DNA from: Sandaracinus amylolyticus
GTDB taxonomy: Bacteria; Myxococcota_A; Polyangia; Polyangiales; Sandaracinaceae
NCBI RefSeq assembly: GCF_000737325.1
Contig: NZ_CP011125.1
Location: 4,464,001 to 4,528,000, forward strand
Direction: 5' to 3'
Length of the DNA stretch: 64,000 nucleotides
Part shown: piece by piece, positions 16,235-29,280 of the stretch
Numbering within the stretch: the first letter of the stretch is position 1
Layout of the letters: each line of letters opens with the position of its first letter
Translations under genes and position numbers: made by a program
Notes under the pieces: model-generated
Seen by the model: the letters and a program-made list of their open reading frames with translations, nothing else
The model's database searches: none
Told to the model about the DNA's origin: nothing

Positions 16235-16750
16235 TCAGCCGTCGACGTAGGGCACACCGAGCACGCGCGCGAGCTGCTGCGCGCCGATGCGCATCGGCCA
16301 CTTCATGCGATCCGCGCGGATCTCGCGGCGCGACGGCAGGAGCGCGATCGCGTGCGCGCCGACGCCGCGCTTGATCACGAGGTCCCACTCGAGGTCGAGC
16401 GCCTTGCGCTCCTCGACCGCGATGCGCGTCGAGACGACGGTGACTCCGGTGATCTGCGCGAGGTCCATCGACGCGCGGCCGAGGCGCAGCTTGCCCGCCG
16501 CGCGGTCGATCACGAGCGGCGACGGCGTCGTCCATGCCCACGCGGCGTACAGGACGAACGGTGCGGCAAGCGCGAGCGGGATCGCGAGCACGAAGAGGCG
16601 CTCGATCGAGAGCACGCTCGCGAGCGAGCCCATTCGCGCGAGCTCGAGCAGCATCAACGCCTCGATCGGCAGCACCACGAGCAGCGACGCGATCGCGAGC
16701 AGCGTGGGGAGCCACGGCGGCGCGATCAGCGAATCACGGATGGGTGTCAT
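16235..16750 (-). CDS. small membrane protein, function unknown
   Basis: About 171 residues from the ATG at 16750, which has AAGAGAG just upstream. Two long hydrophobic stretches (about 12-40 and 50-75) span the membrane; the rest is a soluble beta-rich tail with the look of a PH-like cytoplasmic domain (IDRAAGKLRLGRASMDLAQI). It sits 32 bases downstream of ligA on the same strand. Confidence 0.65.
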   Translation of the reverse strand: MTPIRDSLIAPPWLPTLLAIASLLVVLPIEALMLLELARMGSLASVLSIERLFVLAIPLALAAPFVLYAAWAWTTPSPLVIDRAAGKLRLGRASMDLAQITGVTVVSTRIAVEERKALDLEWDLVIKRGVGAHAIALLPSRREIRADRMKWPMRIGAQQLARVLGVPYVDG

Positions 16751-16782
16751 GCTCTCTTCTTGTCGACCACGCGCCGCGCCCG

Positions 16783-18855
16783 TCACGCGCCCGTGCCGGC
16801 GAGCAGCGCGAGGAGCGCGCTCTCGTCGAGGACCGCGACGCCCAGGCTCTGCGCCTGCTCGAGCTTCGTGCCCGCCTCGGCGCCCGCGACGACGTAGTCG
16901 GTCTTCTTGCTCACCGAGCTCGACACGCGGCCGCCCGCGGCCCGGATGCGCGCGCTCGCGGCCTCGCGAGAGAGGCCCGGCAGCGTCCCGGTGAGCACGA
17001 ACGTCTTGCCCGCGACGCCCTCGACCGCGATCGCGCGCTCCTCGACCGCATCGAGCTTCACGCCGTGCGACGCGAGGCCGCGCACGATGTCGCGCATCGC
17101 GGGCGACGCGAGCACCGCGAAGATCACGTCCGCGCTCCGTCGCGCGAGCCCCGGGATCACGCCGGTCCCGCTCGTGGGCGCGACCTCCGCGATCGCGCCC
17201 TGGTCGCCCGCGACGTAGCGCTCTGCGAACGCGAGCAGCGCGTCCATCGTGCGGAAGTGAAGGGCGAGATCGCGCGCGAGCGTCTCGCCCACGTGACGGA
17301 TCGCGAGCCCGTGGAGCAGGCGCGTCAGCCCGCGCTCCTTCGCGCCCGCGATGCGCTCCGCGATCTTCTGCGCGCTCTTGTCGCCCATGCGGTCCAGCTG
17401 CGCGAGATCACGCGCGCGCAGCGCGAAGAGCTGATCCGGCGTGCGCACCGCGAGCTTCGTAACGAGCTGATCGACCACCGAGTCGCCGAGCCCCTCGACG
17501 TCCATCGCCTTGCGCGACGCGAAGTGCGCGAGCCGCTCGCGCAGCTGATCGGGACAGCGCGGGCTCGTGCAGAAGAGGAAGATCTCCTCGCGCTCCAGCG
17601 CGCTGCCGCACGAGGGGCACACGCTCGGCGCAGTGAACGAGGCGGTGCCCGGCGCGCGGAGCGCGTGCTCCGCGAGCGCGACCTGCGGGATGATGTCGCC
17701 CGCCTTCTCGACCGCCACCCAGTCGCCGACGCGCACGTCCTTGCGCTCGAGCTCGACGAAGTTGTGCAGGCTCGCGCGCACCACGGTCGTCTGCGCGAGG
17801 CGCACCGGCGCGAGCTCCGCGACCGGCGTGAGCTTGCCCGACTTGCCGACCGTCACCGTGATCCCGAGCACGCGCGTGAGGCGTCGCTCGGGTGGGAACT
17901 TCCACGCGACGCCCCAGTGCGGATGGTGGCTCGTCGCACCGAGCCGCGCGTGCGCGTCGCGATCGTCGATCTTCAGCACCATGCCGTCGATCTCGAACGG
18001 CAGCGACGCGCGCTTCGCGGTCCAGGCCTCGCAGACGTCGATCGCCTCGTCGAGCGTCGTCACGTGCGTCGCGAGATCGGCGTACGTCGGCGCCCCGAGA
18101 TCGCGCAGCCAAGCGAGCAGACCGCGCTGCGTGCGCGGCACCGCGACGTCGTCCGATGCGCGCGCGAGCTGGTAGAGGAAACAAGCGAGCCCGGCCTCGC
18201 GCAGCCCGCGCACGTCCTTGCGCTTCACGAGGCCGGCGCACCCGTTGCGCGGGTTCGCGAGCGGCGCCTCGCCGGCAGCGATCAGCGCGGCGTTGTGCCG
18301 CTCGAACGCATCGCGCGGCCAGTAGAGCTCGCCTCGCAGCTCGATCGTGCCGTGATCGATCGCGATGCGATCGGGCACCGCGCCCGTCGCGCGCACCTGC
18401 TTCGTCACGTCGTCGCCGCGTGTGCCGTCGCCGCGCGTGATCGCGCGCGCGAGCTCTCCGCGCTCGTAGATCAGCGCGATCGAGATGCCGTCGACCTTCG
18501 GCTCGATGGTGAGCGCGGGCATCGCGTCCTCGGGCATCGCGAGCTCGATCGCGCGACGGGCGATCCACGCCGCGAGCTGGTCGCGCATCGGAATCGGCGC
18601 GCCGCGCTCGTCGCGCCGACCATGCGAGAGCTTGTCGAGCGAGAGCATCGGCACCTCGTGCACGACGCTCGCGAACCCCTCGGTGTGATCGGCGCCGGGG
18701 CGCGCGTCGATCGCGATCCCGAGCCGCTCTGCGAGCACGCGATGGCGCTCCACGAGATCGTCGAAGACCGCGTCGGGGATCTCGGGCGCGCCCGCCCGAT
18801 AGCGCGCCTCGTGGTGCCTGATCTGCGCGTCGAGCGCGTCGAGCTCGTCTCTCAT
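16783..18855 (-). CDS. ligA: NAD-dependent DNA ligase, divergent LigA-type
   Basis: The 690 residues have the LigA domain order: Ia domain, adenylation domain with the lysine motif EPKVDGISI, OB fold, Cys zinc finger (CPSCG with CTSPRC), helix-hairpin-helix region and C-terminal BRCT (about 610-690). It should seal DNA nicks using NAD. Several normally strict positions differ. The Ia motif reads HEARYRAGAPEIPDAVFDDL, where most enzymes have YH and YD. The usual NPRNAAAGSLRQ is NPRNGCAGLVKRK. It may be a paralogue for repair rather than the replicative ligase. The start at 18855 is the first good Met. It is divergent from the PARP gene 111 bases away. Confidence 0.92.
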   Translation of the reverse strand: MRDELDALDAQIRHHEARYRAGAPEIPDAVFDDLVERHRVLAERLGIAIDARPGADHTEGFASVVHEVPMLSLDKLSHGRRDERGAPIPMRDQLAAWIARRAIELAMPEDAMPALTIEPKVDGISIALIYERGELARAITRGDGTRGDDVTKQVRATGAVPDRIAIDHGTIELRGELYWPRDAFERHNAALIAAGEAPLANPRNGCAGLVKRKDVRGLREAGLACFLYQLARASDDVAVPRTQRGLLAWLRDLGAPTYADLATHVTTLDEAIDVCEAWTAKRASLPFEIDGMVLKIDDRDAHARLGATSHHPHWGVAWKFPPERRLTRVLGITVTVGKSGKLTPVAELAPVRLAQTTVVRASLHNFVELERKDVRVGDWVAVEKAGDIIPQVALAEHALRAPGTASFTAPSVCPSCGSALEREEIFLFCTSPRCPDQLRERLAHFASRKAMDVEGLGDSVVDQLVTKLAVRTPDQLFALRARDLAQLDRMGDKSAQKIAERIAGAKERGLTRLLHGLAIRHVGETLARDLALHFRTMDALLAFAERYVAGDQGAIAEVAPTSGTGVIPGLARRSADVIFAVLASPAMRDIVRGLASHGVKLDAVEERAIAVEGVAGKTFVLTGTLPGLSREAASARIRAAGGRVSSSVSKKTDYVVAGAEAGTKLEQAQSLGVAVLDESALLALLAGTGA

Positions 18856-18966
18856 CCGCGCGAGAGAGTACCGCTTGCGGCGTCGCGCGCGTTTCGAGGA
18901 AGCTGCTGCGGCGACGCTCCGTAGAGCCGCTCTGCGGGCTCGAACGGAGCGAGGGAGGGCGAGCGG

Positions 18967-20391
18967 ATGGCCAAGGCGAAGGCGTGGAAGTTGGGGAGCC
19001 CAGGGGAGCCCTCGTTCCCCGGCGACTTCGAGATCGTGAAGCGCGCCGTCCTGCAGCTCACCGACGTCGTCAACAACAACAACAAGTACTACGGCATCGA
19101 GCTGCACCGCGCGGGCAACGCGTACCGCGTGTTCACGCACTACGGGCGCACCGACGACCTCGAGACGAACCCGAACGCAGGCGCGAAGGAGAGCCGCTAC
19201 TTCGACGATCTCGCCTCGGCCGACGCGTGTTACGCGCAGATCTATCGCGAGAAGACCGCCGCCTCGAAGGGCTACAAAGAGGTGTCGCTCGCCTCGAGCA
19301 AGATCGGCTCGCACAAGGCGCGCGGCACGAGCAGCGGGCAGATCGACGAGCGCACGCTCGAGAAGATCGAGGGCGAGAAGGAGAAGCGCGCCGCGATCCC
19401 CAAGTCGACGCTGCCGCCCGGCGTGCAGTCGATGCTGCAGTACGTCTACGACGAGGCGACGAACGCGCTGACGTCGACGGTCGCCGCGAAGATCACCGCG
19501 CACGGCATCGAGACGCCGCTCGGCGTGCTGACCATCGGACAGATCGAGCGCGGCGAGGCGATCCTGAACGACGCGTTCAAGGTCTTCGAGCAGCGCGGCA
19601 CGAAGGCGCAGGCGGAGCTCTCGCGTCTGTCGAGCGACTTCTACTCCGCGATCCCGCACCGCCTCGGCCGCACGCGCGCGGAGATCCAGGCCGCGGTGCT
19701 CGACTCGCTCGAGGAGTTCGCGGCGAAGCAGGAGACGCTGCAGCTCATGCGCGACATGCTCCAGGTCAACGGCGAGGGCGGCAGCGTCCTCTACGACTCG
19801 GAGATCGACGCGAAGTACAAGGCGCTCAACTGCGAGATCGGCTGGATCGAGCCGGGCACCGGGCCGTGGAAGGAGATCGCAGACTACGTCGAGCGCTCGC
19901 AGATCAAGAGCAAGAGCGTGAAGGTGCGCAACGTGATGACGCTGAAGCGCGCCGGCGAGCACGACGCGTTCACCGACGGCATCGGCAACCACCGCATGCT
20001 CTTCCACGGATCGCGCATCAAGAACTGGGTCGGCATCCTCTCGCGCGGGATCCTGCTGCCGAAGATCGTCGTCAGCATGGGCGTGAAGCGCACCGACGCA
20101 GGCTGGCTCGGCAACGGCATCTACTTCGGCGACGCGGCGTGCACGAGCGCGTTCTACACGTCGCCCGGCAAGAAGGGCACGCGCCTCATGAGCGTCGCGC
20201 GCGTCGCGCTCGGCAAGACCGCCGAGTACACGAAGATCACCTACGGGCTGAACGGCCCGCCCGAGGGCTTCGACTCGTGCCACGGCGTGCGCAACAAGCC
20301 GGGCACGTCGTCGCAGTTCGCCGACGACGAGTACGTCGTCTATCGCACGCAACAGCAGCGGCTCGAGTACCTCGTCGAGTTCACGGCGTGA
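18967..20391 (+). CDS. WGR-domain poly(ADP-ribose) polymerase (PARP)
   Basis: The 474 residues form a bacterial PARP. A WGR domain spans about 27-108 (NNNNKYYGIELHR, with HYGRTD in place of the WGR core), a helical regulatory domain about 150-290, and the ADP-ribosyltransferase domain about 300-474. The H-Y-E triad of true PARPs is visible: His347 in LFHGSR, Tyr386 in GNGIYFGD and Glu455 in DDEYVVYR, so chain elongation is possible. In eukaryotic PARPs, WGR binds damaged DNA and relieves the helical domain. It heads a one-strand cluster running to 28877 and is back-to-back with a DNA ligase. GAGGGAGGG precedes the ATG. Confidence 0.95.
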   Translation: MAKAKAWKLGSPGEPSFPGDFEIVKRAVLQLTDVVNNNNKYYGIELHRAGNAYRVFTHYGRTDDLETNPNAGAKESRYFDDLASADACYAQIYREKTAASKGYKEVSLASSKIGSHKARGTSSGQIDERTLEKIEGEKEKRAAIPKSTLPPGVQSMLQYVYDEATNALTSTVAAKITAHGIETPLGVLTIGQIERGEAILNDAFKVFEQRGTKAQAELSRLSSDFYSAIPHRLGRTRAEIQAAVLDSLEEFAAKQETLQLMRDMLQVNGEGGSVLYDSEIDAKYKALNCEIGWIEPGTGPWKEIADYVERSQIKSKSVKVRNVMTLKRAGEHDAFTDGIGNHRMLFHGSRIKNWVGILSRGILLPKIVVSMGVKRTDAGWLGNGIYFGDAACTSAFYTSPGKKGTRLMSVARVALGKTAEYTKITYGLNGPPEGFDSCHGVRNKPGTSSQFADDEYVVYRTQQQRLEYLVEFTA

Positions 20392-20405
20392 GAGGAGAAG
20401 CAGCG

Positions 20406-21146
20406 ATGCTCGTCAAAGTGGTCCTCTGCGACGTGAACCCGAAGGTCATCCAGGCGTGGCGCGCGACCTTCGAGGAGAACCCCGAGGTCGAGATCGTGCA
20501 CGGCTCGATGCTCGACATGTCGACCAGCGCATGGGTCTCGCCGACGAACTCGGCGGGCCGCATGGACGGCGGGCTCGATCTCGTGATCAAGAACTACCTC
20601 GGCGTCGGCATCGAGAAGACGCTGCAGCGCACCATCAAGGATCGCTACGCGGGACGCATGCCGGTCGGCCACGCAGCGTGCACGCCGACCGAGCGCGTGC
20701 AGCCGCGCTTCCTGATCTCGACGCCGACGATGGTCTCGTCGTCGGAGGACATCAGCGCGACGATGAACGTCGCGCTCGCGTGCGCGGCCGCGTTCCAGGC
20801 GGTGCACATCCAGAACACGGTCGAGCCGGGCACGATCCGATCGGTCGCGCTGCCGGGCCTCGGTGCGAACACGGGGAGGGTGCCCGCGGAGATCTGCGCG
20901 GACCTGATGTGGACCGCGTACGACCTCTTCCGCGAGCACGCGTTCACCGACTTCGCGGCGGTGCGCCAGGCGCTCGAGAGCATCCTCGGCGACCTCGGAC
21001 CGACGTCGACGCAGTACAAGCAGAAGGCCGCGCCGGGCCTCTCGCAGATGGGCATCACCCCGTCGAAGCCGACGATCGGCGGTGCGCTCGAGGACTTCGA
21101 CGACTCGGAGTTCGAGGACGACGAAGACTTCAGCGACGACGAATGA
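20406..21146 (+). CDS. macro-domain protein (ADP-ribose reader or eraser)
   Basis: The 246 residues contain a macro fold: EIVHGSMLDMS, then VSPTNSAGRMDGGLD (the phosphate-binding Asn/Gly loop, residues 44-58), and the glycine loop ALPGLGANTGRVP. Macro domains bind ADP-ribose, and many remove it from proteins. A helical region (about 165-225) and a strongly acidic tail follow (last 18 residues nearly all Asp, Glu, Phe, Ser), which suggests contact with a basic partner. It begins 15 bases after the PARP gene with GAGAGGAGAAG upstream, so the two are surely one operon. Confidence 0.92.
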   Translation: MLVKVVLCDVNPKVIQAWRATFEENPEVEIVHGSMLDMSTSAWVSPTNSAGRMDGGLDLVIKNYLGVGIEKTLQRTIKDRYAGRMPVGHAACTPTERVQPRFLISTPTMVSSSEDISATMNVALACAAAFQAVHIQNTVEPGTIRSVALPGLGANTGRVPAEICADLMWTAYDLFREHAFTDFAAVRQALESILGDLGPTSTQYKQKAAPGLSQMGITPSKPTIGGALEDFDDSEFEDDEDFSDDE

Positions 21147-21173
21147 TCGCGACGACGATTCGGATTCGCTGAA

Positions 21174-23705
21174 GTGATCCCGACGAGACGATTCCGGCGT
21201 CCGACCGGGGACGATCGTTACGCGGTCGTCTCCGTCGAGCCGTCTTCGGCGCAGCCGGGCGCTGGCTCACTCCAGGGACAGTGGCTGATCCGCGTCGCGC
21301 GCGGCATCGCGCCGGGGTCGCTCTCGAGCGGGACGGTGTACGGGCCGTATCCGACGAACCTCGCGGACGCGCGCGCCGAGGACGTGGTCCGCGCGCTGCT
21401 CGGCGAGGGGTTCACGCCCTCGGTGCACGAGGAGCTGATCGAGGCGCTCTCGTCGTCGGATCCCGCGCGTCGTGCGCGCGCGGCGATCGCGCTCGGTTGG
21501 CGTCGCGAGCGCGCGGTCGTGCCGGCGCTGCTCGCGGCGGCCGCGACGAAAGGGCCCGAGCTGCCTTCGATCGTCGAGGCGCTCGGGCGCATCGGGGATC
21601 CCGCGGCGATCCCCATCACGCGCGAGCTCGCGAGCAAGAAGCTGCTCTCGCGGCGACGCGCGGGCGTGGAGGCGCTGCGGCTGCTGGGCGACGCCGAGGG
21701 GCTCGCGGAAGCGCGCGCCGCGGGACAGAAGCGCTTGCCGCCCAGCATCGCGCAGGCGATCGGCGCGCTCGACGAGAACGACCTGCGCAAGAGCAACGTG
21801 GCGCCGCTGCTCGAGGTGATCGACGCGCTCGAGAAGGCGCGCGTCGGGATCGTGGCGGATCAGCTCTACGAGGCGGGCACGCCTGCGCTGGTCGCGACCG
21901 CGCGCCGGATGCTGCGCGCGTCCGACGTGTCGGCGCCGCACGTGTGGCGCTACGCGAAGAGCGTGCTGAAGCGCGCGATGCTGCGCGAGGACGCGGCGAC
22001 GTTCGCGCTGATCGCGCACGCGATCGAGCAGCGCGCACGGAGCACCAAGGGAAAGAGCGCGAGCCTCAAGTCGGGGCTCGACGGAGAGACGCGCTCGACG
22101 CGCGTCTTCGGTCGCAAGACCCAGCGCTGGGCGATGCGCGCGTGCTGGCGCTACCTGCGACGGATCGCGAAGTGGAGGCCCGAGCGCTACGCCGAGATCG
22201 CGGCCGAGGTGCTCTGCGCGTACCGGCCCGAGGATCGCGCGCCCGAGCAGGGGCTCTTCGGGCCGCTCGCGCATTCGTATGAGCTCCAACGAATTCTGTT
22301 CGCGCGCAGCACGCGCGTGGTGCTCGACGACCGCACGCTGAAGACGCGGTTCGCGAGCGCGGCCGCGAAGATGGCCGTCGCGAGCGTGCGCGAAGAGGCG
22401 TTCCCGGAGCTCTGGGACGCGCGCCCGGACGCGTACCTGCGAGCGCTCGTCGGGGGACGGCTGCGCGAGGTGCAGGACTTCGCGCTCGCAGGCGTCGCGC
22501 GTCATCCCGGCCTCGCCCAGCGCCTGCAGAACGGCGACATCGCGTCGCTGCTCGCGTCGGAGCACGAGGGTGTGGTCGCGGTCGCGCTCGCGGAGCTCGA
22601 GCGACGCTTCGACGCGACGAAGCCCGATCTCGCGCTGCTCTCGCGCTTGCTCGACTCGGAGAGCGCGTCGGTGCGCGCGCGGGGCGCCGCGCTGCTCGAT
22701 CGTTCGCGGCTCGCGTGGTCCGGCGATCCCGAGGGCGTGCTGCGGCTGCTCGATCGCGAGCGCCCGGTCGCGCGCGCCGAGATCGCGAGCATCGTCGCGA
22801 GCGCGCTGCGCGACGCCGCGCGTGATGCGCGGATGGCGATCGCGAAGCGGCTCGTCGATCGGCTGCGTGAGGGCGGAGACGACGATCGGCTCGCGTCGAT
22901 CGCGGAGCTGCTCGCGAGCGCGCTGCGAGACGAGGTCGCGAGCGTGCTCTCGTCGACCGAGCTCATCGCGTGGATCGATCGCGGCGGGAACGCGGCGAAG
23001 CGTGTCGCGGGGCGGCTGCTCGCGGGTCGACCCGAGGCGCTGGCGCTGATCGGGCTGCCGCGCCTCACCGCGCTCGCCGACTCGGAGGTCGCGACGGTGC
23101 GCGAGGCCGCCGTCGCGCTGCTCGATGCGGCCGAGGGCGAGCTGCGCGCCGATCCGACGCCGCTCTACACGCTCGCGGAGTCGCGCTGGGACGACGTGCG
23201 GCGTCCCGCGCTCGCGCGGCTGCGCGCGCTGATCACGGTCGAGCAGCACGGGCTCGATGCGGTGATCGCGCTCTGCGACTCCAACCACGCGGAGGTGCAG
23301 GCGCTGGGGCGCGAGCTCGTGCTCGCATCGTTCGATCGCCTCGACGCGGACGCCGTGCTCTTCCGGCTGATCGAGCACCCGCAGCGCGCGATGCGTGCCT
23401 TCGCGATGGAGCTCGCGACGCAGCACCTGCGCCCTGGGTACGTGCCGCTCGCGCGATGCGAGGCGTTCTTCCGCACGGTGCTGCTCGAAGTGCGCGCGGA
23501 TGCGGCGACGAAGCGCCGCGCGATCGACTTCCTCGTCACGCGCGGGCAGCTCGACGCGCAGCAGGGCGCGCTCGCGGCATCGCTGCTCGATCGCGTGCTG
23601 CGCACGCGCACCGTGCGCGACTTCGAGCGCGTGATCGTCGGGCTCGCCGCGATCCAGACACGCTTCCCCGAGGTGCGCAGCGCGCTCTCGACGGAGGGCG
23701 CATGA
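21174..23705 (+). CDS. large HEAT-repeat protein
   Basis: The 843 residues are almost wholly alpha-helical repeats. Clear HEAT units include ALSSSDPARRARAAIALGW and EALGRIGDPAAIPITRELA near 85-150, and further ones from about 435 to 760. The first 75 residues are beta-rich (QGQWLIRVARG, VYGPYPT) and could be a very divergent WGR-like module; this is weak. No catalytic motif is seen, so it is probably a scaffold or nucleic-acid-binding solenoid. GTG start at 21174, 27 bases after the macro gene. Its stop overlaps the next start (ATGA), implying translational coupling. Confidence 0.85.
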   Translation: MIPTRRFRRPTGDDRYAVVSVEPSSAQPGAGSLQGQWLIRVARGIAPGSLSSGTVYGPYPTNLADARAEDVVRALLGEGFTPSVHEELIEALSSSDPARRARAAIALGWRRERAVVPALLAAAATKGPELPSIVEALGRIGDPAAIPITRELASKKLLSRRRAGVEALRLLGDAEGLAEARAAGQKRLPPSIAQAIGALDENDLRKSNVAPLLEVIDALEKARVGIVADQLYEAGTPALVATARRMLRASDVSAPHVWRYAKSVLKRAMLREDAATFALIAHAIEQRARSTKGKSASLKSGLDGETRSTRVFGRKTQRWAMRACWRYLRRIAKWRPERYAEIAAEVLCAYRPEDRAPEQGLFGPLAHSYELQRILFARSTRVVLDDRTLKTRFASAAAKMAVASVREEAFPELWDARPDAYLRALVGGRLREVQDFALAGVARHPGLAQRLQNGDIASLLASEHEGVVAVALAELERRFDATKPDLALLSRLLDSESASVRARGAALLDRSRLAWSGDPEGVLRLLDRERPVARAEIASIVASALRDAARDARMAIAKRLVDRLREGGDDDRLASIAELLASALRDEVASVLSSTELIAWIDRGGNAAKRVAGRLLAGRPEALALIGLPRLTALADSEVATVREAAVALLDAAEGELRADPTPLYTLAESRWDDVRRPALARLRALITVEQHGLDAVIALCDSNHAEVQALGRELVLASFDRLDADAVLFRLIEHPQRAMRAFAMELATQHLRPGYVPLARCEAFFRTVLLEVRADAATKRRAIDFLVTRGQLDAQQGALAASLLDRVLRTRTVRDFERVIVGLAAIQTRFPEVRSALSTEGA

Positions 23706-25438
23706 CTGCGACGTCCTTCGCGTACAAGTACGCGGGCCGCAGCGGTGCCGTCGCGAGCGGCGATCGCGCGCGCCTCGCGCTCGCGACGAGCACGCTGCGC
23801 GAGGCGACGTACTTCGCAGGTGAGCTCGATGACGTGCTCCCGCTGCGCGAGGGGCTCGCCGCGCTCTACGACGTCGCGGTCAGCGACTTCCGATATCACC
23901 CGCGCGATCGCACCGCGTTCCGTGCGTGGCTCGCGGAGCAGGACCGCCTGTTCCTCGCGGGGCTCGCCGCGAAGAGCACGCACGCGAAGGCGCGCCTCGG
24001 CGAGATCCAGCTGCGCATCGGCGAGCTCGATCGGGCCCGCGCCGAGCGTCGCGCGTCGTTCGAGAAGGCGCGCCGCGCGTACGTGCAGTGGGCGATCGAG
24101 GACGAGCTCGAGCGCTCACTGGTGCTCGATCCCGTGGTCACCGTGCACCCCGACGAGCTCTCGTTCGAGGCGTTCTCGCGCGATCAGAGCAGCTACGCGC
24201 GGCTCGCGGTGGGGCACGCGGCGTTCTCGCGCATCGACGCGATCGAGCACGGCACGACGAACGTCGACTTCTCGTCGCGCCTGCACGATCACTTCGATCG
24301 GATGCGCAGCTATCGCGCGACGCGGTTCGAGATCGCGCCGGGTGGCTTCGAGGCCGAGACGATCGCGGCGCTGCCCGAGACCGCGCGGTCGGTGCACGAG
24401 AAGAAGATCACGATGCCCGAGGGCTGGCTCGCGGGCTTCCTCCAGGTGCACGGCCTGATGTCGATGGGGCTCGAGCGCGTCGAGCTCGCGCCCGTCGACG
24501 TCTACAACGTGATCCGCGTGATCCGTGCTCGACGCGCGCAGGCGTCACCGCGCTCGCTGCGCTGGCAGCTCACGCCCGGCGAGCGCACGAAGATCCTGAT
24601 CGAGCCCTTCGACGTGCTCGTGACCGGCTCGCCGATCAGCAGGTTCCACGGCGCGAAGGAGCGCTCGATCCGCACGTGGGGCCGCGATCGACTGCGCGTG
24701 CTCGAGCGCGTGCTGCCGCTCGCGGAGCGCGTGCAGGTATTCCTCGCGGGCTCCGGCCTGCCGAGCATCTGGGTGTGTGATCTCGGTGGACGCGTGACGT
24801 TCACGCTCGCGCTGTCGGGCTGGACCGACAACGACTGGGCCGGCGGTCAGGCGAAGTTCGATCTGCTCACGCGTCGCCTGCCGACGAACGCCGACGAGCT
24901 GACGCGTGTCTACGGCGCGCTGCGCGATGCCCGTCGCGCGACCGACGCGGAGATCGCCGCACGTTGTGATCTCGGCGTCGAGAAGGCGCGCAGCGCGCTC
25001 TCGATCCTCGCGCAGGCGGGACGCGCGATGTACGACGTCGTGAGCGGCCTGCATCGCCATCGCGATCTCTTGCTGGTGCCGTTCTCGGCGAGCGCGGCGA
25101 TCGCGGAGGCGAAGGTCGCGGAGATCGAGTCGAGCCCGAAGGCGAAGACCGCGAAGGAGATGATCGACCACGGCGGCGTACGGATCATCGCGCGCCGTCC
25201 GACGTCGATGGGGTACAAGCTCTCGGGCAGCGCGCGCGGAGAGAGCGGTCCGCCGGTGCGCCCGCTGCTCGCGGTGGATCACGAAGGACAGATCCTCGAG
25301 GCCAGCTGCACGTGCGTGTTCGCGGAGAAGCACGGGCTGACCAAGGGACCCTGCGAGCACGTGCTCGCGCTGCGGCTCGCGCACATGGCGAAGCTCGAGG
25401 AGGAGGATCAGGCGAAGAAGAAAGGATCGTCGTCGTGA
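23702..25438 (+). CDS. SWIM zinc-finger protein
   Basis: The 578 residues end in a SWIM zinc finger: Cys536-x-Cys538 (SCTCVF), Cys551-x-His553 (PCEHVL). SWIM fingers bind DNA or proteins. The N-terminal half has a helical, charged stretch (about 95-145), and the middle (about 270-460) is mixed alpha/beta with no enzyme motif I recognise. The start overlaps the HEAT gene stop by four bases, so the two are probably made together in fixed ratio. The stop lies 13 bases before the retron RNA. Confidence 0.88.
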   Translation: MTATSFAYKYAGRSGAVASGDRARLALATSTLREATYFAGELDDVLPLREGLAALYDVAVSDFRYHPRDRTAFRAWLAEQDRLFLAGLAAKSTHAKARLGEIQLRIGELDRARAERRASFEKARRAYVQWAIEDELERSLVLDPVVTVHPDELSFEAFSRDQSSYARLAVGHAAFSRIDAIEHGTTNVDFSSRLHDHFDRMRSYRATRFEIAPGGFEAETIAALPETARSVHEKKITMPEGWLAGFLQVHGLMSMGLERVELAPVDVYNVIRVIRARRAQASPRSLRWQLTPGERTKILIEPFDVLVTGSPISRFHGAKERSIRTWGRDRLRVLERVLPLAERVQVFLAGSGLPSIWVCDLGGRVTFTLALSGWTDNDWAGGQAKFDLLTRRLPTNADELTRVYGALRDARRATDAEIAARCDLGVEKARSALSILAQAGRAMYDVVSGLHRHRDLLLVPFSASAAIAEAKVAEIESSPKAKTAKEMIDHGGVRIIARRPTSMGYKLSGSARGESGPPVRPLLAVDHEGQILEASCTCVFAEKHGLTKGPCEHVLALRLAHMAKLEEEDQAKKKGSSS

Positions 25439-25450
25439 CGCGCGCAGTGC

Positions 25451-25709
25451 GTCGAGGACGAGGGGTCGGGGAGCCCAGCGCGCTCATCACGCGCAACGGC
25501 CTAGCCATCGGTGCGGTGCAACGCCGCGCAGGCTCACGTGCTCTCCATTCGTCACGGGCCCGGTCGGCACCCGGGTCCCACGGCCCTGCCCGCCCGCAGC
25601 TGGTTGGGGACCTCCGGTCCCCGCGGGCATCGGCAGGGCCGCGGGACCCTATGGTGGACAGGTCCCGTCCCAGGGCTCTTCGTAGGCGCCCCGGCCCCTC
25701 GTCCTCGAC
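25451..25709 (+). ncRNA. retron msr/msd RNA (template and primer for msDNA)
   Basis: The gap between the SWIM and RT genes has every part of a retron RNA. The ends pair: a1 at 25451-25471 with a2 at 25689-25709, 21 consecutive pairs including one G-U. Directly after a1 comes AGC (25472-25474), whose G is the expected 2'-OH branch point. The msr part has hairpins at 25478-25494 (GCGCG/CGCGC) and 25513-25527. The msd part is one long stem: 25573-25590 with 25632-25649 (17 of 18 paired), continued inside by GCCCGC/GCGGGC and GGGGACC/GGTCCCC around a 3-base tip near 25614. The exact msDNA ends cannot be read from sequence alone. Confidence 0.88.
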
Positions 25710-25730
25710 GGATTGCAGGAACGCGCTCGC

Positions 25731-27137
25731 ATGAGCGACGAGAAGGACCCGCAGAAGGCCGCGCTCGTCAAAGCGGTCCTCGCGTCGCTCGACGACGCGA
25801 CCGCGCTCTCGCGCATGAAGACGCTCGGCTTCTGGCCCGTGCACGAGCCGGTGCCGGGCGATCCGCCGGGCGAGATCGTCGAGCGCGCGGAGCTCGACGC
25901 CGAGCTCGCGACGCTGGTGAAGATCGCGAGCGACGGCGAGAAGCCCGAGAAGGCGCTGCAGCGCGAGCGCATCCGGCGCTGGAAGGAGAGCCGCGAGCGT
26001 CGCAAGGCGAAGAAGGCCGAGCGCATCGCGGAGGCGAAGCAGCGCGCCGACGCATGGCGCGCGCAGCGCGCCGAGCGCCTCGTCTACGCGGGCCTCGGCG
26101 TCAGCGCGGGGCTGCACGACGTCGAGAGCGACGTCGCGACGCTCGAGGCGTGCGGACTTCCGATCTGGCGCGACGCGCGCGACGTCGCGAGCGCGCTCGG
26201 CATCTCGATCGCGAAGCTGCGCTGGCTGACGTTCCACCGTCGCGGCGCGACGCTCGTGCACTACCACCGCTACGGAATCCCCAAGAAGACCGGCGGAATT
26301 CGCGCGATCTCGGCGCCCAAGCCCGCGCTCGCCGAGGCACAGCAGAACGTGCAATCGTTGGTGCTCCAACGAATCGCGCCGAGCGACGAGGCGCACGGCT
26401 TCGTGCGCGAGCGCTCGGTCGTGAGCAACGCGCGGCCGCACGTCGGGCGCGCGGTCGTGGTGAACCTCGACTTGCGCGACTTCTTTCCGACGATCTCGTT
26501 CCGCCGCGTGAAGGGCCTGTTCGCGAAGCTCGGCTACTCCGAGCAGGTCGCGACCGTGCTCGCGCTCCTGTGCACCGAGCCGCCGCGCGTGCCCGCCGAG
26601 CTCGACGGGCAGCGCTACCACGTCGCGCTCGGCGCGCGCGTGCTGCCCCAGGGCGCGTGCACCAGCCCCGCGATCACGAACCTGATCTGCCGCCGCCTCG
26701 ATGCGCGGTTGCGCGGCATCGCGCGCGCGCTGGGGTTCACGTACACGCGCTACGCCGACGACCTCACGTTCTCGGGCGACGATCCCACGAAGCTCGCGTC
26801 GCTGTTCGGCATGGTGCGCAAGGTGATCGCGAGCGAGGGGTTCGCCGAGCACGAGGGCAAGACGCGCGTCATGCGCCGCGGCGCGCGCCAGGAAGTGACG
26901 GGCGTCGTGGTGAACCGCGCAGTGCGTCTGCCGCGCGACGAGAAGCGCGCGCTCCGCGCGTTGCTGTACAACTGCGCTCGCTTCGGGATGGAGAGCCAGA
27001 ACCGCGACGGTCGTCCGAGCTTCGCGTCGTACCTTCGTGGGCGCGTCGCGTGGGCGGTGATGGTCGAGCCCGCGCTCGGGCCGCGGCTCTTCCCGGCGCT
27101 CGAGCGCGCGCTCGAAGGTCGGCGCAGCGATCTCTGA
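25731..27137 (+). CDS. retron reverse transcriptase
   Basis: The 468 residues carry all retron RT marks: motif A NLDLRDFF (about 245-252), PQGACTSPAITN, the catalytic YADD (341-344), the retron-specific NAxxH (NARPH, 234-238) and VTG (389-391). It copies the msd part of the RNA at 25451-25709 into msDNA branched from the msr guanosine. The first 120 residues are an Arg/Lys/Glu-rich helical extension, a feature I associate with myxobacterial retron RTs. It starts 21 bases after a2 and ends 12 bases before the ADP-ribosylglycohydrolase fusion gene. Confidence 0.95.
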   Translation: MSDEKDPQKAALVKAVLASLDDATALSRMKTLGFWPVHEPVPGDPPGEIVERAELDAELATLVKIASDGEKPEKALQRERIRRWKESRERRKAKKAERIAEAKQRADAWRAQRAERLVYAGLGVSAGLHDVESDVATLEACGLPIWRDARDVASALGISIAKLRWLTFHRRGATLVHYHRYGIPKKTGGIRAISAPKPALAEAQQNVQSLVLQRIAPSDEAHGFVRERSVVSNARPHVGRAVVVNLDLRDFFPTISFRRVKGLFAKLGYSEQVATVLALLCTEPPRVPAELDGQRYHVALGARVLPQGACTSPAITNLICRRLDARLRGIARALGFTYTRYADDLTFSGDDPTKLASLFGMVRKVIASEGFAEHEGKTRVMRRGARQEVTGVVVNRAVRLPRDEKRALRALLYNCARFGMESQNRDGRPSFASYLRGRVAWAVMVEPALGPRLFPALERALEGRRSDL

Positions 27138-27149
27138 TCGGGGGAATCG

Positions 27150-28877
27150 ATGGGAGAGCGAAGAGGCAGCGGGGACGGGACGATGCAGCTCGATCTGCTC
27201 GGCGCCGAGGTCGCGCGTCCGACGAAGTCGAGCCCGGGCACGGTCGTGGCCGATGCGCCCGCGAAGGTCACGTCGAGCACGCATCCGATGCGCGTCACGT
27301 GGGTCGAGCCGCGCATCGGCGTCGCGCACGCGCCCGGCGTCGTCGAGATCGCGGAGACCGGCATCGAGTGGTCGCGTGATCTCGCGAGCGATCTCGACGC
27401 GCTGCGCGCCGAGGGCGCCGACGTGCTCGTCGACCTGACGACCGACGAGGAGCGCGCGCGCGGCGGGTACGGCGCGATCGAGGATCTCGCGGACGAGCGC
27501 GAGCTCGTCGTGATCCGACTCCCGATCGTGCCCGAGGGCGCGCCCTGCGAAGACGCGCACGAGGTGCTCGAGCGCATCGAGTCGCACGTCTCCGAGGACG
27601 CGAAGGTCGTGCTCGTCTCGCGCGAAGGGATGGGGCGCGCGGGGACCATCGCAGTCGCGCTGCAGGTGCGCAGCGGGCGCGCGCTCGACGATGCGCTGCG
27701 CGCGACACGCGAGCTGCGTGGGCGCAAGGTGGCGAGCAGCGACGCGCAGCGCGAGTGGCTCGAGCAGATCGCGCAGCACGTCGCGTCGGCGAGTGCCATC
27801 GACGACGGCGAAGAGGGCGATCTCTGGAGCGCGCGCGAGCTCGACGACGACGACCTCGGTCCCGAGCTCCCCGAAGCGGCGATCCGCGAGACGATCCCGC
27901 CGGAGATCCGTCCCGCCACGCCGCGTGCGCGCGCTCTCTCTCCGCGTGCCTCCGCGGTCGGCGGCGCGGTGCTCGGCGCCGCGATCGGCGATGCGATGGG
28001 GCACCCCACCGAGTTCATGTCGCTCGAGGCGATCCGCCGGAAGTGGCCGCCTCACGGCGTGACCGCGTTCGAGCTCTACTGGGAGCGCGGCGGCAAGCGC
28101 TTCGCGCCGTACACCGACGACACGCAGATGGCGGAAGCGGTGCTGCGCTCGCTCTTGTGGTCGCGCCGCGAGGGCGCGGATCTCGACGCGACGATGCAGC
28201 ACATGGCGCGTGCGTTCGTGGAGTGGGCGGAGCGCCCGCAGGGCGGACATCGCGCGCCGGGCAACGCGTGCCTCAGCGGGTCGCGCGCGCTCGCGCGCGG
28301 TGAGCACTGGTCGCGCGCCGGTGGACCGACCGCGGGCGGATGCGGATCGGTGATGCGCGCGTATCCGTTCGGCCTGCTCTACGCCCACGATCTCTCGCGC
28401 TGTGAGGAGTGGTCGGTCGCGCACAGCAAGCTCACGCATCGCGATCCGATCGCGCTCGCGGCCAGCGCGGCGATGGCGATCGGCGTGGCGCGCGTGCTGC
28501 GCGGCGATCCGACGCGCGTCGTGCTCAGCGAGATGATCGCCGCCGCTGCGCGGTACAGCGCGCGCACTGCGGTGATGATGGCCGAGGCGCTCGACGACGC
28601 GGATGGCGGCGTCGCGCCCGAGACGACGCTCGATCGACTGCGCGGCTGGGCAGCGCACGAGGCGATCGCGGCCGCGGTCTACCTCTTCGCGCGCTCGCCC
28701 GACGATCCCGAGCGCGCGATCCTCGAAGGCGCGAACAGCCCCGGCGACAGCGACAGCCTCGCGACGCTCTCGGGCGCGCTCGCCGGTGCGCGCGCCGGGC
28801 TCGGTGCGCTGCCCGACGCGTGGGTGCGCGACGTCGAGCGCAGCGACGATCTGCTCGCGCTCGCCCTCGAGATCTGA
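27150..28877 (+). CDS. phosphatase-fold/ADP-ribosylglycohydrolase fusion
   Basis: The 575 residues join two domains. The N-terminal part (about 55-215) resembles a dual-specificity or CDKN3-like phosphatase, but the signature loop reads VSREGMGRAGT: the catalytic Cys is Ser157 and the preceding His is Val, so phosphatase activity is unlikely. The C-terminal part (about 268-575) is an ADP-ribosylglycohydrolase (ARH/DraG type) with both metal sites: TDDTQM, and GDSDSLATLSGA near the end. It should remove ADP-ribose from proteins or nucleic acid, opposing the PARP at 18967. An internal ATG at 27183 is an alternative start. It is the last gene of the cluster. Confidence 0.92.
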   Translation: MGERRGSGDGTMQLDLLGAEVARPTKSSPGTVVADAPAKVTSSTHPMRVTWVEPRIGVAHAPGVVEIAETGIEWSRDLASDLDALRAEGADVLVDLTTDEERARGGYGAIEDLADERELVVIRLPIVPEGAPCEDAHEVLERIESHVSEDAKVVLVSREGMGRAGTIAVALQVRSGRALDDALRATRELRGRKVASSDAQREWLEQIAQHVASASAIDDGEEGDLWSARELDDDDLGPELPEAAIRETIPPEIRPATPRARALSPRASAVGGAVLGAAIGDAMGHPTEFMSLEAIRRKWPPHGVTAFELYWERGGKRFAPYTDDTQMAEAVLRSLLWSRREGADLDATMQHMARAFVEWAERPQGGHRAPGNACLSGSRALARGEHWSRAGGPTAGGCGSVMRAYPFGLLYAHDLSRCEEWSVAHSKLTHRDPIALAASAAMAIGVARVLRGDPTRVVLSEMIAAAARYSARTAVMMAEALDDADGGVAPETTLDRLRGWAAHEAIAAAVYLFARSPDDPERAILEGANSPGDSDSLATLSGALAGARAGLGALPDAWVRDVERSDDLLALALEI

Positions 28878-29238
28878 GTCCCTACCGGAGTGCTCGTCCC
28901 GCGTGTCCCGGACGGGAGCGCGCGAAGCGCGCGCGGACGGTAGGGCCGTGCGGGCGAGCCGATTTCGAGTCCCTACCGGAGTGCTCGTCCCGCGTGTCCC
29001 GGACGGGAGCGCGCGAAGCGCGCGCGGACGGTAGGGCCGTGCGGGCGAGCCGATTTCGAGTCCCTACCGGAGTGCTCGTCCCGCGTGTCCCGGACGGGAG
29101 CGCGCGAAGCGCGCGCGGACGGTAGGGACGTGCGGGCGAGCCGATTTCGACTCCCTACCGGAGTGCTCGTCGCGCGTGTCCCGGACGGGAGCGCGCGAAG
29201 CGCGCGGACGGTAGGGACACGCGGGCGAGCCGATTTTC
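28876..29238 (+). repeat. four tandem copies (91 bp) of the dispersed palindromic repeat
   Basis: Units start at 28876, 28967, 29058 and 29149; the last is about two bases shorter. Copies are almost identical. Each has an outer CCCTACCG/CGGTAGGG pair, an inner GCGCGC-GAA-GCGCGC hairpin and a GGGCGAGCCGAT edge. The first unit begins inside the stop codon region of the ADP-ribosylglycohydrolase fusion gene. The array fills most of the 403-base gap before the next gene; only about 40 bases remain for a promoter. No coding signal. Confidence 0.92.
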
Positions 29239-29280
29239 GAGCCGCTTGCCCGGGCCGGGGCGTCTCCTAAGCTCTGGCGC

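Follow-up and report, generated by a model that had tools for sequence, protein, structure and literature searches.

A stretch of 64,000 nucleotides from the Sandaracinus amylolyticus genome (positions 4464001-4528000 of its single contig of 10.33 Mb; hereafter the window, whose own numbering is used below) carries a retron together with genes of ADP-ribosylation families, namely PARP, macro and the ADP-ribosylhydrolase ARH. Six genes and one non-coding RNA occupy the plus strand from 18967 to 28877, in the order WGR-PARP, macro, HEAT, SWIM, msr/msd, reverse transcriptase (RT) and DSP-ARH. The first gene (18967-20391) encodes a protein of 474 amino acids (aa) with WGR, PARP regulatory and PARP catalytic domains, and is followed by those for a 246-aa macrodomain protein with an acidic C-terminal tail (20406-21146), an 843-aa HEAT solenoid protein of the type XIII WGR/HEAT-ARM family of PADLOC (21174-23705) and a 578-aa SWIM zinc-finger protein (23702-25438). 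The RNA (25451-25709) precedes the RT gene (25731-27137 from its ATG, an upstream TTG start at 25713 being possible), and the last gene (27150-28877) fuses a DSP-phosphatase-like domain to a DraG/ARH-type ADP-ribosylhydrolase (residues 272-556).

Pfam matches among the cluster proteins included PARP (E-value 4e-29), Macro (2e-11), RVT_1 (2e-19), ADP_ribosyl_GH (4e-60) and Tc-R-P of the DSP-PTPase fold (2e-6), as well as PARP_reg, WGR and HEAT_2. The coordinates, gene order and single strand given for the cluster in the original prediction were borne out by Pfam and the reading frames, as was its tight spacing: outside the RNA-bearing spacer the intergenic gaps are, in gene order, 14, 27, -4 and 12 bases, the HEAT and SWIM genes sharing an ATGA stop/start overlap. 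The interval proposed there holds the six genes and the RNA but omits a gene on the minus strand (16783-18855), divergent from the PARP gene, for a 690-aa LigA-type NAD+-dependent DNA ligase, apparently part of the module. Purifying selection acts on all seven genes (ratio of nonsynonymous to synonymous substitution rates, dN/dS, from 0.05 to 0.20 between two sister species). Scans of the locus for sigma-70 promoters and terminators returned nothing above chance.

The locus is a type XIII retron, consisting of RT, SWIM and HEAT proteins plus a covarying msr/msd RNA that lies between the SWIM and RT genes. In PADLOC, the RT matched RT_XIII at 533 bits (377 for the next-best model), the SWIM protein matched SWIM_XIII at 534 bits, and the HEAT protein matched WGR_XIII and HEAT-ARM_XIII at 338 and 230 bits, respectively; HEAT and SWIM partners of such retrons were thus already catalogued, as the original prediction suggested. 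The window PARP and ARH proteins had no PADLOC match, and PARP, macro, ARH and LigA, which lie outside the PADLOC models of type XIII, mark one RT clade within that type. The RT motifs NAxxH, YADD and VTG are invariant or nearly so among 17 aligned RTs. Myxobacterial retrons were the first retrons known, and the classification of Mestre et al. from 2020 is said to include type XIII. Retrons in general restrain an effector until phage infection (PMC12548924); a literature search found no report of anti-phage activity for type XIII retrons.

Elsewhere in the same genome, at 7364649-7368387, stands another type XIII retron, whose RT belongs to a different clade; it has HEAT and SWIM genes and no PARP, macro or ARH gene nearby. 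The genome also carries eight further RT genes (L001-L008) with near-equal RVT_1 scores of 115-120 bits, which are probably one mobile-element family.

On inspection, the spacer between the SWIM and RT genes displays the parts of a retron RNA, all on the plus strand: an a1/a2 perfect inverted repeat of 15 bp that bounds it (25451-25465 and 25695-25709), a putative branch site TAGC at 25502-25505 with the priming G at 25504 (assigned by analogy with known retrons), an msr hairpin of 8 pairs (25511-25529) and a long msd hairpin (25554-25668), both hairpins being backed by covariation. This architecture is conserved among 22 aligned sequences, with TAGC or TGGC in the same place in most homologues, and compensatory changes on both sides were found in 27 of the 40 consensus pairs. 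Across 21 distinct rows, 91.0% of cells pair, versus 73.4% in shuffles and 38-44% when partners were slid by 1-3 columns, the structure having been derived from the very alignment on which it was scored, which gives it an advantage over the slid versions. The whole-structure covariation score was 0.459 (0.159 in shuffles), and in the msr hairpin 100% of cells are paired, with double changes in two pairs. As Rfam at gathering thresholds matched no known retron family at the locus, the retron RNA is shown by sequence comparison. The repeat, hairpins and covariation, together with the RT_XIII and SWIM_XIII matches, sustain the earlier call of a retron. Two variants were seen among homologous loci: in a planctomycete (L164:14960-15410), two tandem retron RNAs with different msd stems stand ahead of one RT, and in another locus (L047) a short repeat (CTGGCACCCTCCRGA) occurs about twelve times between the msd and the RT gene.

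For the conservation of the neighbourhood, about 93 loci were gathered and annotated with profiles built from the window proteins; the SWIM_XIII profile had matches in 91 of 289 genomes of the class, and a search with the macro alignment contributed a further 32 from named genomes, many of which belong to other phyla. A tree was built of 94 type XIII RTs, and in it the window RT falls inside a clade of 20 (SH-aLRT support 99). The succession PARP-macro-HEAT-SWIM-RNA-RT, in the same order and on the same strand, was found in 17 of these 20 loci, which span Myxococcota, Planctomycetota (including Tautonia sociabilis), Acidobacteriota and Pseudomonadota, while the three remaining members (L059, L104 and L105) have a PARP and a macro gene of these subfamilies at other places in the genome. 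Outside the clade, 73 of 74 RTs are without a linked PARP, and the only one that has it (L094) has a PARP of a different kind. On the RT tree, the PARP-linkage label requires 3 changes, versus 16.7 in shuffles, and none of 500 shuffles was as low. The co-directional PARP-macro-HEAT-SWIM-msr/msd-RT cassette is thereby shown to have stayed or moved together across four phyla.

The occurrence of the two subfamilies was also followed over 317 genomes of the class. The macro subfamily (>290 bits) was present in 14 and the PARP subfamily (>690 bits) in 15 of them: the 11 clade genomes of the SWIM_XIII scan plus three others (G289, G288 and G259) and, for PARP, also a fourth (G142). The three are fragmentary assemblies of the same genera as the 11; G289 has the full cassette on one contig (L187), the contig of G288 is cut inside the SWIM gene (L190), and the locus of G259 is fragmentary (L188). 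A PARP of any kind was found in 11 of 11 clade genomes versus 2 of 14 others (25 genomes; Fisher p = 2e-5, a value inflated by shared ancestry). These results support PARP and macro as core partners of this RT clade, and their link to the retron is not a chance one. The neighbourhood comparison called for by the original prediction thus had a divided outcome, for every member of the RT clade has PARP and macro, in most cases next to the retron, but elsewhere in type XIII the retron core travels without PARP, as the 73 of 74 RTs show. Likewise, its joining of PARP, macro and ARH alike to the RT holds for the first two (17 of 20 linked) but for ARH in only 9 of the 17 loci. Gene content differs further at two loci: L073 (10557-17081), of another type XIII clade, encodes a 2175-aa WD40 and HEAT protein between its HEAT and SWIM genes, and L091 a protein with WGR and beta-propeller parts upstream of HEAT.

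PF00644 matches no protein of the genome other than the window PARP. Its catalytic triad (H347, Y386 and E455) and the YGR residues of its WGR domain are invariant among 18 PARP sequences. When the PARP profile was compared with solved structures (PDB chains only), PARP4 scored highest at 218 bits, followed by PARP2, PARP1 and PARP3 at 141, 119 and 112 bits, respectively; by sequence, the catalytic domain thus appears nearest to that of human vault PARP4. Membership in the vault PARPs was rejected, as Pfam detected WGR, PARP_reg and PARP only, and this short protein, unlike PARP4, is without BRCT, VIT, vWA and vault-binding regions. In its WGR-PARP_reg-PARP layout and H-Y-E triad it resembles the bacterial WGR-PARPs of the Herpetosiphon and Clostridioides type, in which Y usually replaces W in the WGR motif as it does here (PMC4245714, PMC5966428). 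It differs from them in scoring best with PARP4, whereas bacterial PARPs are described as mostly closest to the DNA-repair PARPs of Clade 1 (PMC4245714).

In the macrodomain protein, the loops PTNxxGxMDGGLD and PGLGAxxG are conserved among 8 sequences, dN/dS against the sister species is 0.05, and among solved structures the yeast protein of 1njr comes closest (33 bits). We know of no established pathway for bacterial PARPs.

Removal of ADP-ribose is also the family role of the last gene. Its ARH part has the metal motifs TDDT and GDSDS, and its nearest solved structures are MJ1187, DraG and ARH3. The earlier description of a phosphatase fold joined to an ADP-ribosylglycohydrolase stands as to the Tc-R-P and ADP_ribosyl_GH matches, yet the phosphatase part has lost its catalytic cysteine: in its signature, VSREGMGRAG, Cys is replaced by Ser in both species that carry the domain, and an active phosphatase was rejected. 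This fusion domain was seen only in this genus. ARH is an accessory, since it is linked in just 9 of the 17 loci and in three different positions: after the RT (the window, L042, L064, L065, L156, L163 and L170), convergent (L047) or before PARP (L181). Directly after the ARH stop codon of the window, a 91-bp unit that contains a G+C-rich inverted repeat is repeated head to tail, four times in all (28876-29241).

The genome has two PF01653 (LigA) matches, of which one, at 10195492, lies outside the window and the other is the copy beside the PARP gene. The latter is in the same place in a sister species (dN/dS 0.15), and LigA is also linked in L064, L065, L094 and L156, in differing arrangements. 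In L156, a single reading frame of 1069 aa (16750-19956) directly after the RT combines ARH (residues 20-318) with LigA (465-1008); L094, from a different clade of type XIII, has the arrangement RT-ARH-LigA-WGR-PARP; and in two genomes (G094 and G187) an ARH-LigA pair lies away from the retron. ARH and LigA were within 11 kb of each other in 7 of 12 genomes with the system versus 0 of 18 other type XIII genomes (Fisher p = 0.0004), and were strict neighbours in 5 of 12 versus 0 of 18 (p = 0.006), counts that treat related genomes as independent. Both genes are thus shown to be accessory but recurrent, having been recruited repeatedly. The sister-species LigA (L042:15618-17677) reads in two frames that switch near 16571 and may be frameshifted or mis-assembled.

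The two proteins encoded between macro and the RNA were modelled with AlphaFold2. The HEAT protein is a solenoid (mean predicted local distance difference test, pLDDT, 90) whose first 80 residues form four strands and one helix. This unit may be a degenerate WGR; Pfam found no WGR in the HEAT proteins of the RT clade, and the VIA-align rows for the model covered residues 475-839 alone, not the strand-rich N-terminus. In the SWIM protein, the SWIM domain falls just below the Pfam cut-off, and its zinc ligands CxC...CxH (C536, C538, C551 and H553) are invariant in 19 homologues. Residues 37-375 are predicted to hold a PCNA-like sliding-clamp fold: the model superposes on human PCNA (1axc) with a VIA-align Z of 17.3 and 2.6 A over 222 residues, PCNA being covered end to end by the two predicted clamp domains, and Foldseek gave an E-value of 5e-8. 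It differs from PCNA-type clamps in its 10-11% identity, a long helical insertion and added helical and SWIM parts.

Taken together, the data point to an unrecognised system for tagging and untagging molecules at DNA ends, serving either phage defence or DNA repair. DNA ends activate WGR-PARPs, and LigA seals nicks. In the proposed scheme, the RT would make a long-hairpin multicopy single-stranded DNA (msDNA). Together with the HEAT scaffold and the SWIM protein of PCNA-like fold, this msDNA would assemble into a nucleoprotein, and the complex would hold the break-activated WGR-PARP in check, or position it. Foreign or damaged DNA would disturb the complex, upon which PARP would use NAD+ to ADP-ribosylate DNA ends or end-bound proteins; macro and ARH would then clear host molecules of the mark, after which LigA, as an accessory, would reseal the cleaned nicks. 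A precedent is offered by PARP3, which reversibly mono-ADP-ribosylates phosphorylated DNA ends, the mark being removed by MACROD2, TARG1, PARG and ARH3 (PMC5725667). Gating, end marking and erasure are thus proposed by analogy with the family roles of WGR-PARP, PARP3, macro/ARH3, LigA and retron restraint. Support for the scheme comes from the gene order conserved in the clade, the tracking of the clade genomes by PARP and macro, and the invariant H-Y-E and WGR residues; the pairing and fusion of ARH with LigA, the PCNA-like SWIM fold, the purifying selection and the actinobacterial relatives of the macro gene, which also adjoin an ADP-ribosyltransferase, lend it further support.

Our preferred reading, to which we assign a probability of roughly 0.4, is that this subtype of type XIII retron, distinguished by its PARP, defends against invading DNA and has inbuilt means of reversing the modification and repairing the host. 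The fuller picture is of a DNA machine based on a retron, with a vault-PARP-like enzyme that reversibly ADP-ribosylates DNA ends under the control of msDNA, HEAT and the PCNA-fold SWIM protein, and with dedicated erasers and a ligase beside it; taken whole, it is doubtful. Several findings weigh against the preferred reading. Physical linkage is not essential, because in three clade members PARP lies apart from the retron, and the clade-subfamily PARP of G142 (L194) stands alone. ARH is missing from 8 of the 17 linked loci and LigA from most, and the significance of their pairing is subject to the relatedness of the genomes counted. Furthermore, the clamp fold comes from one AlphaFold2 model built with 19 sequences (mean pLDDT 74), and no Pfam PCNA match was found among the 19 SWIM members, the likeness to PCNA being at the level of fold alone.

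A module for the repair of DNA strand breaks is a credible competitor, if still a tentative one. Here the WGR-PARP would sense and mark nicks or breaks, the PCNA-fold SWIM protein and HEAT would assemble the enzymes on DNA, macro and ARH would clear the termini and LigA would seal them, with the RT and msDNA as a structural or regulatory DNA cofactor. This alternative, raised already in the original prediction, has gained weight because of the LigA linkage (a second LigA beside PARP), the ARH-LigA fusion after the RT and the PCNA-like SWIM fold; it also fits with the purifying selection, with there being two distinct erasers and with flanking genes that are shared with the sister species. Moreover, among the genomes compared, the ARH-LigA pairing occurs only where the system is present, and the L094 RT has independently gathered ARH, LigA and a WGR-PARP. 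However, the patchy spread seen with SWIM_XIII within the class is more defence-like, the spread across phyla and the several retron paralogues per genome resemble those of defence genes, and the retrons of known function are anti-phage. The defence and repair readings share most of their biochemistry and differ in trigger and purpose.

It is improbable that PARP and macro form a self-contained transferase/antitoxin pair like DarTG, with no link in mechanism to the retron, whose operon would merely let them be transcribed or mobilised together with it. As in DarTG and other ART-macro pairs, an ADP-ribosyltransferase adjoins a macrodomain protein, and the window macro has a weak DarG match. Actinobacterial macro relatives (L175 and L178) are divergent to an ART-family ADP-ribosyltransferase with no retron nearby, which gives the macro family a transferase partner in another setting too; the three clade genomes that keep PARP and macro apart from the retron, and the solo PARP of G142, fit such a pair as well. 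Yet those three genomes retain both halves despite the separation, PARP and macro occurrence tracks the RT clade over the 317 genomes, and gene order is kept across the four phyla. The window transferase is, in addition, PARP-type, with regulatory and end-sensing WGR domains and no match to the DarT models in PADLOC, and the locus has further components, namely the retron, the HEAT and SWIM proteins and another eraser. Finally, a chance neighbourhood of unrelated genes, to which the looseness of ARH and LigA might point, is very improbable and was rejected for PARP and macro, given that 17 loci from four phyla share one order of the five genes and given the label changes on the RT tree.

Type XIII retrons are known, and the link to PARP, macro and ARH looks new, in agreement with the original prediction: neither PADLOC nor the searchable literature yielded the PARP/macro core, the ARH and LigA accessories, the PARP4-like domain or the PCNA-like fold, an earlier mention in the classification literature being possible. 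No mention of such an operon was found in the accessible parts of the bacterial PARP surveys (PMC4245714, PMC5966428).

If the proposal is true, this would be, to our knowledge, the first retron coupled to a PARP and the first with a sliding-clamp-like subunit, as well as a counterpart in bacteria to PARP-ligase signalling at strand breaks. If the gating holds, reversible ADP-ribosylation of DNA ends would join the known retron effectors, and the system would be a bacterial counterpart of the PARP-dependent break signalling of animals. For myxobacterial msDNA and for bacterial PARPs, a fixed operon with erasers, a ligase and a predicted clamp provides a concrete and testable set of partners.

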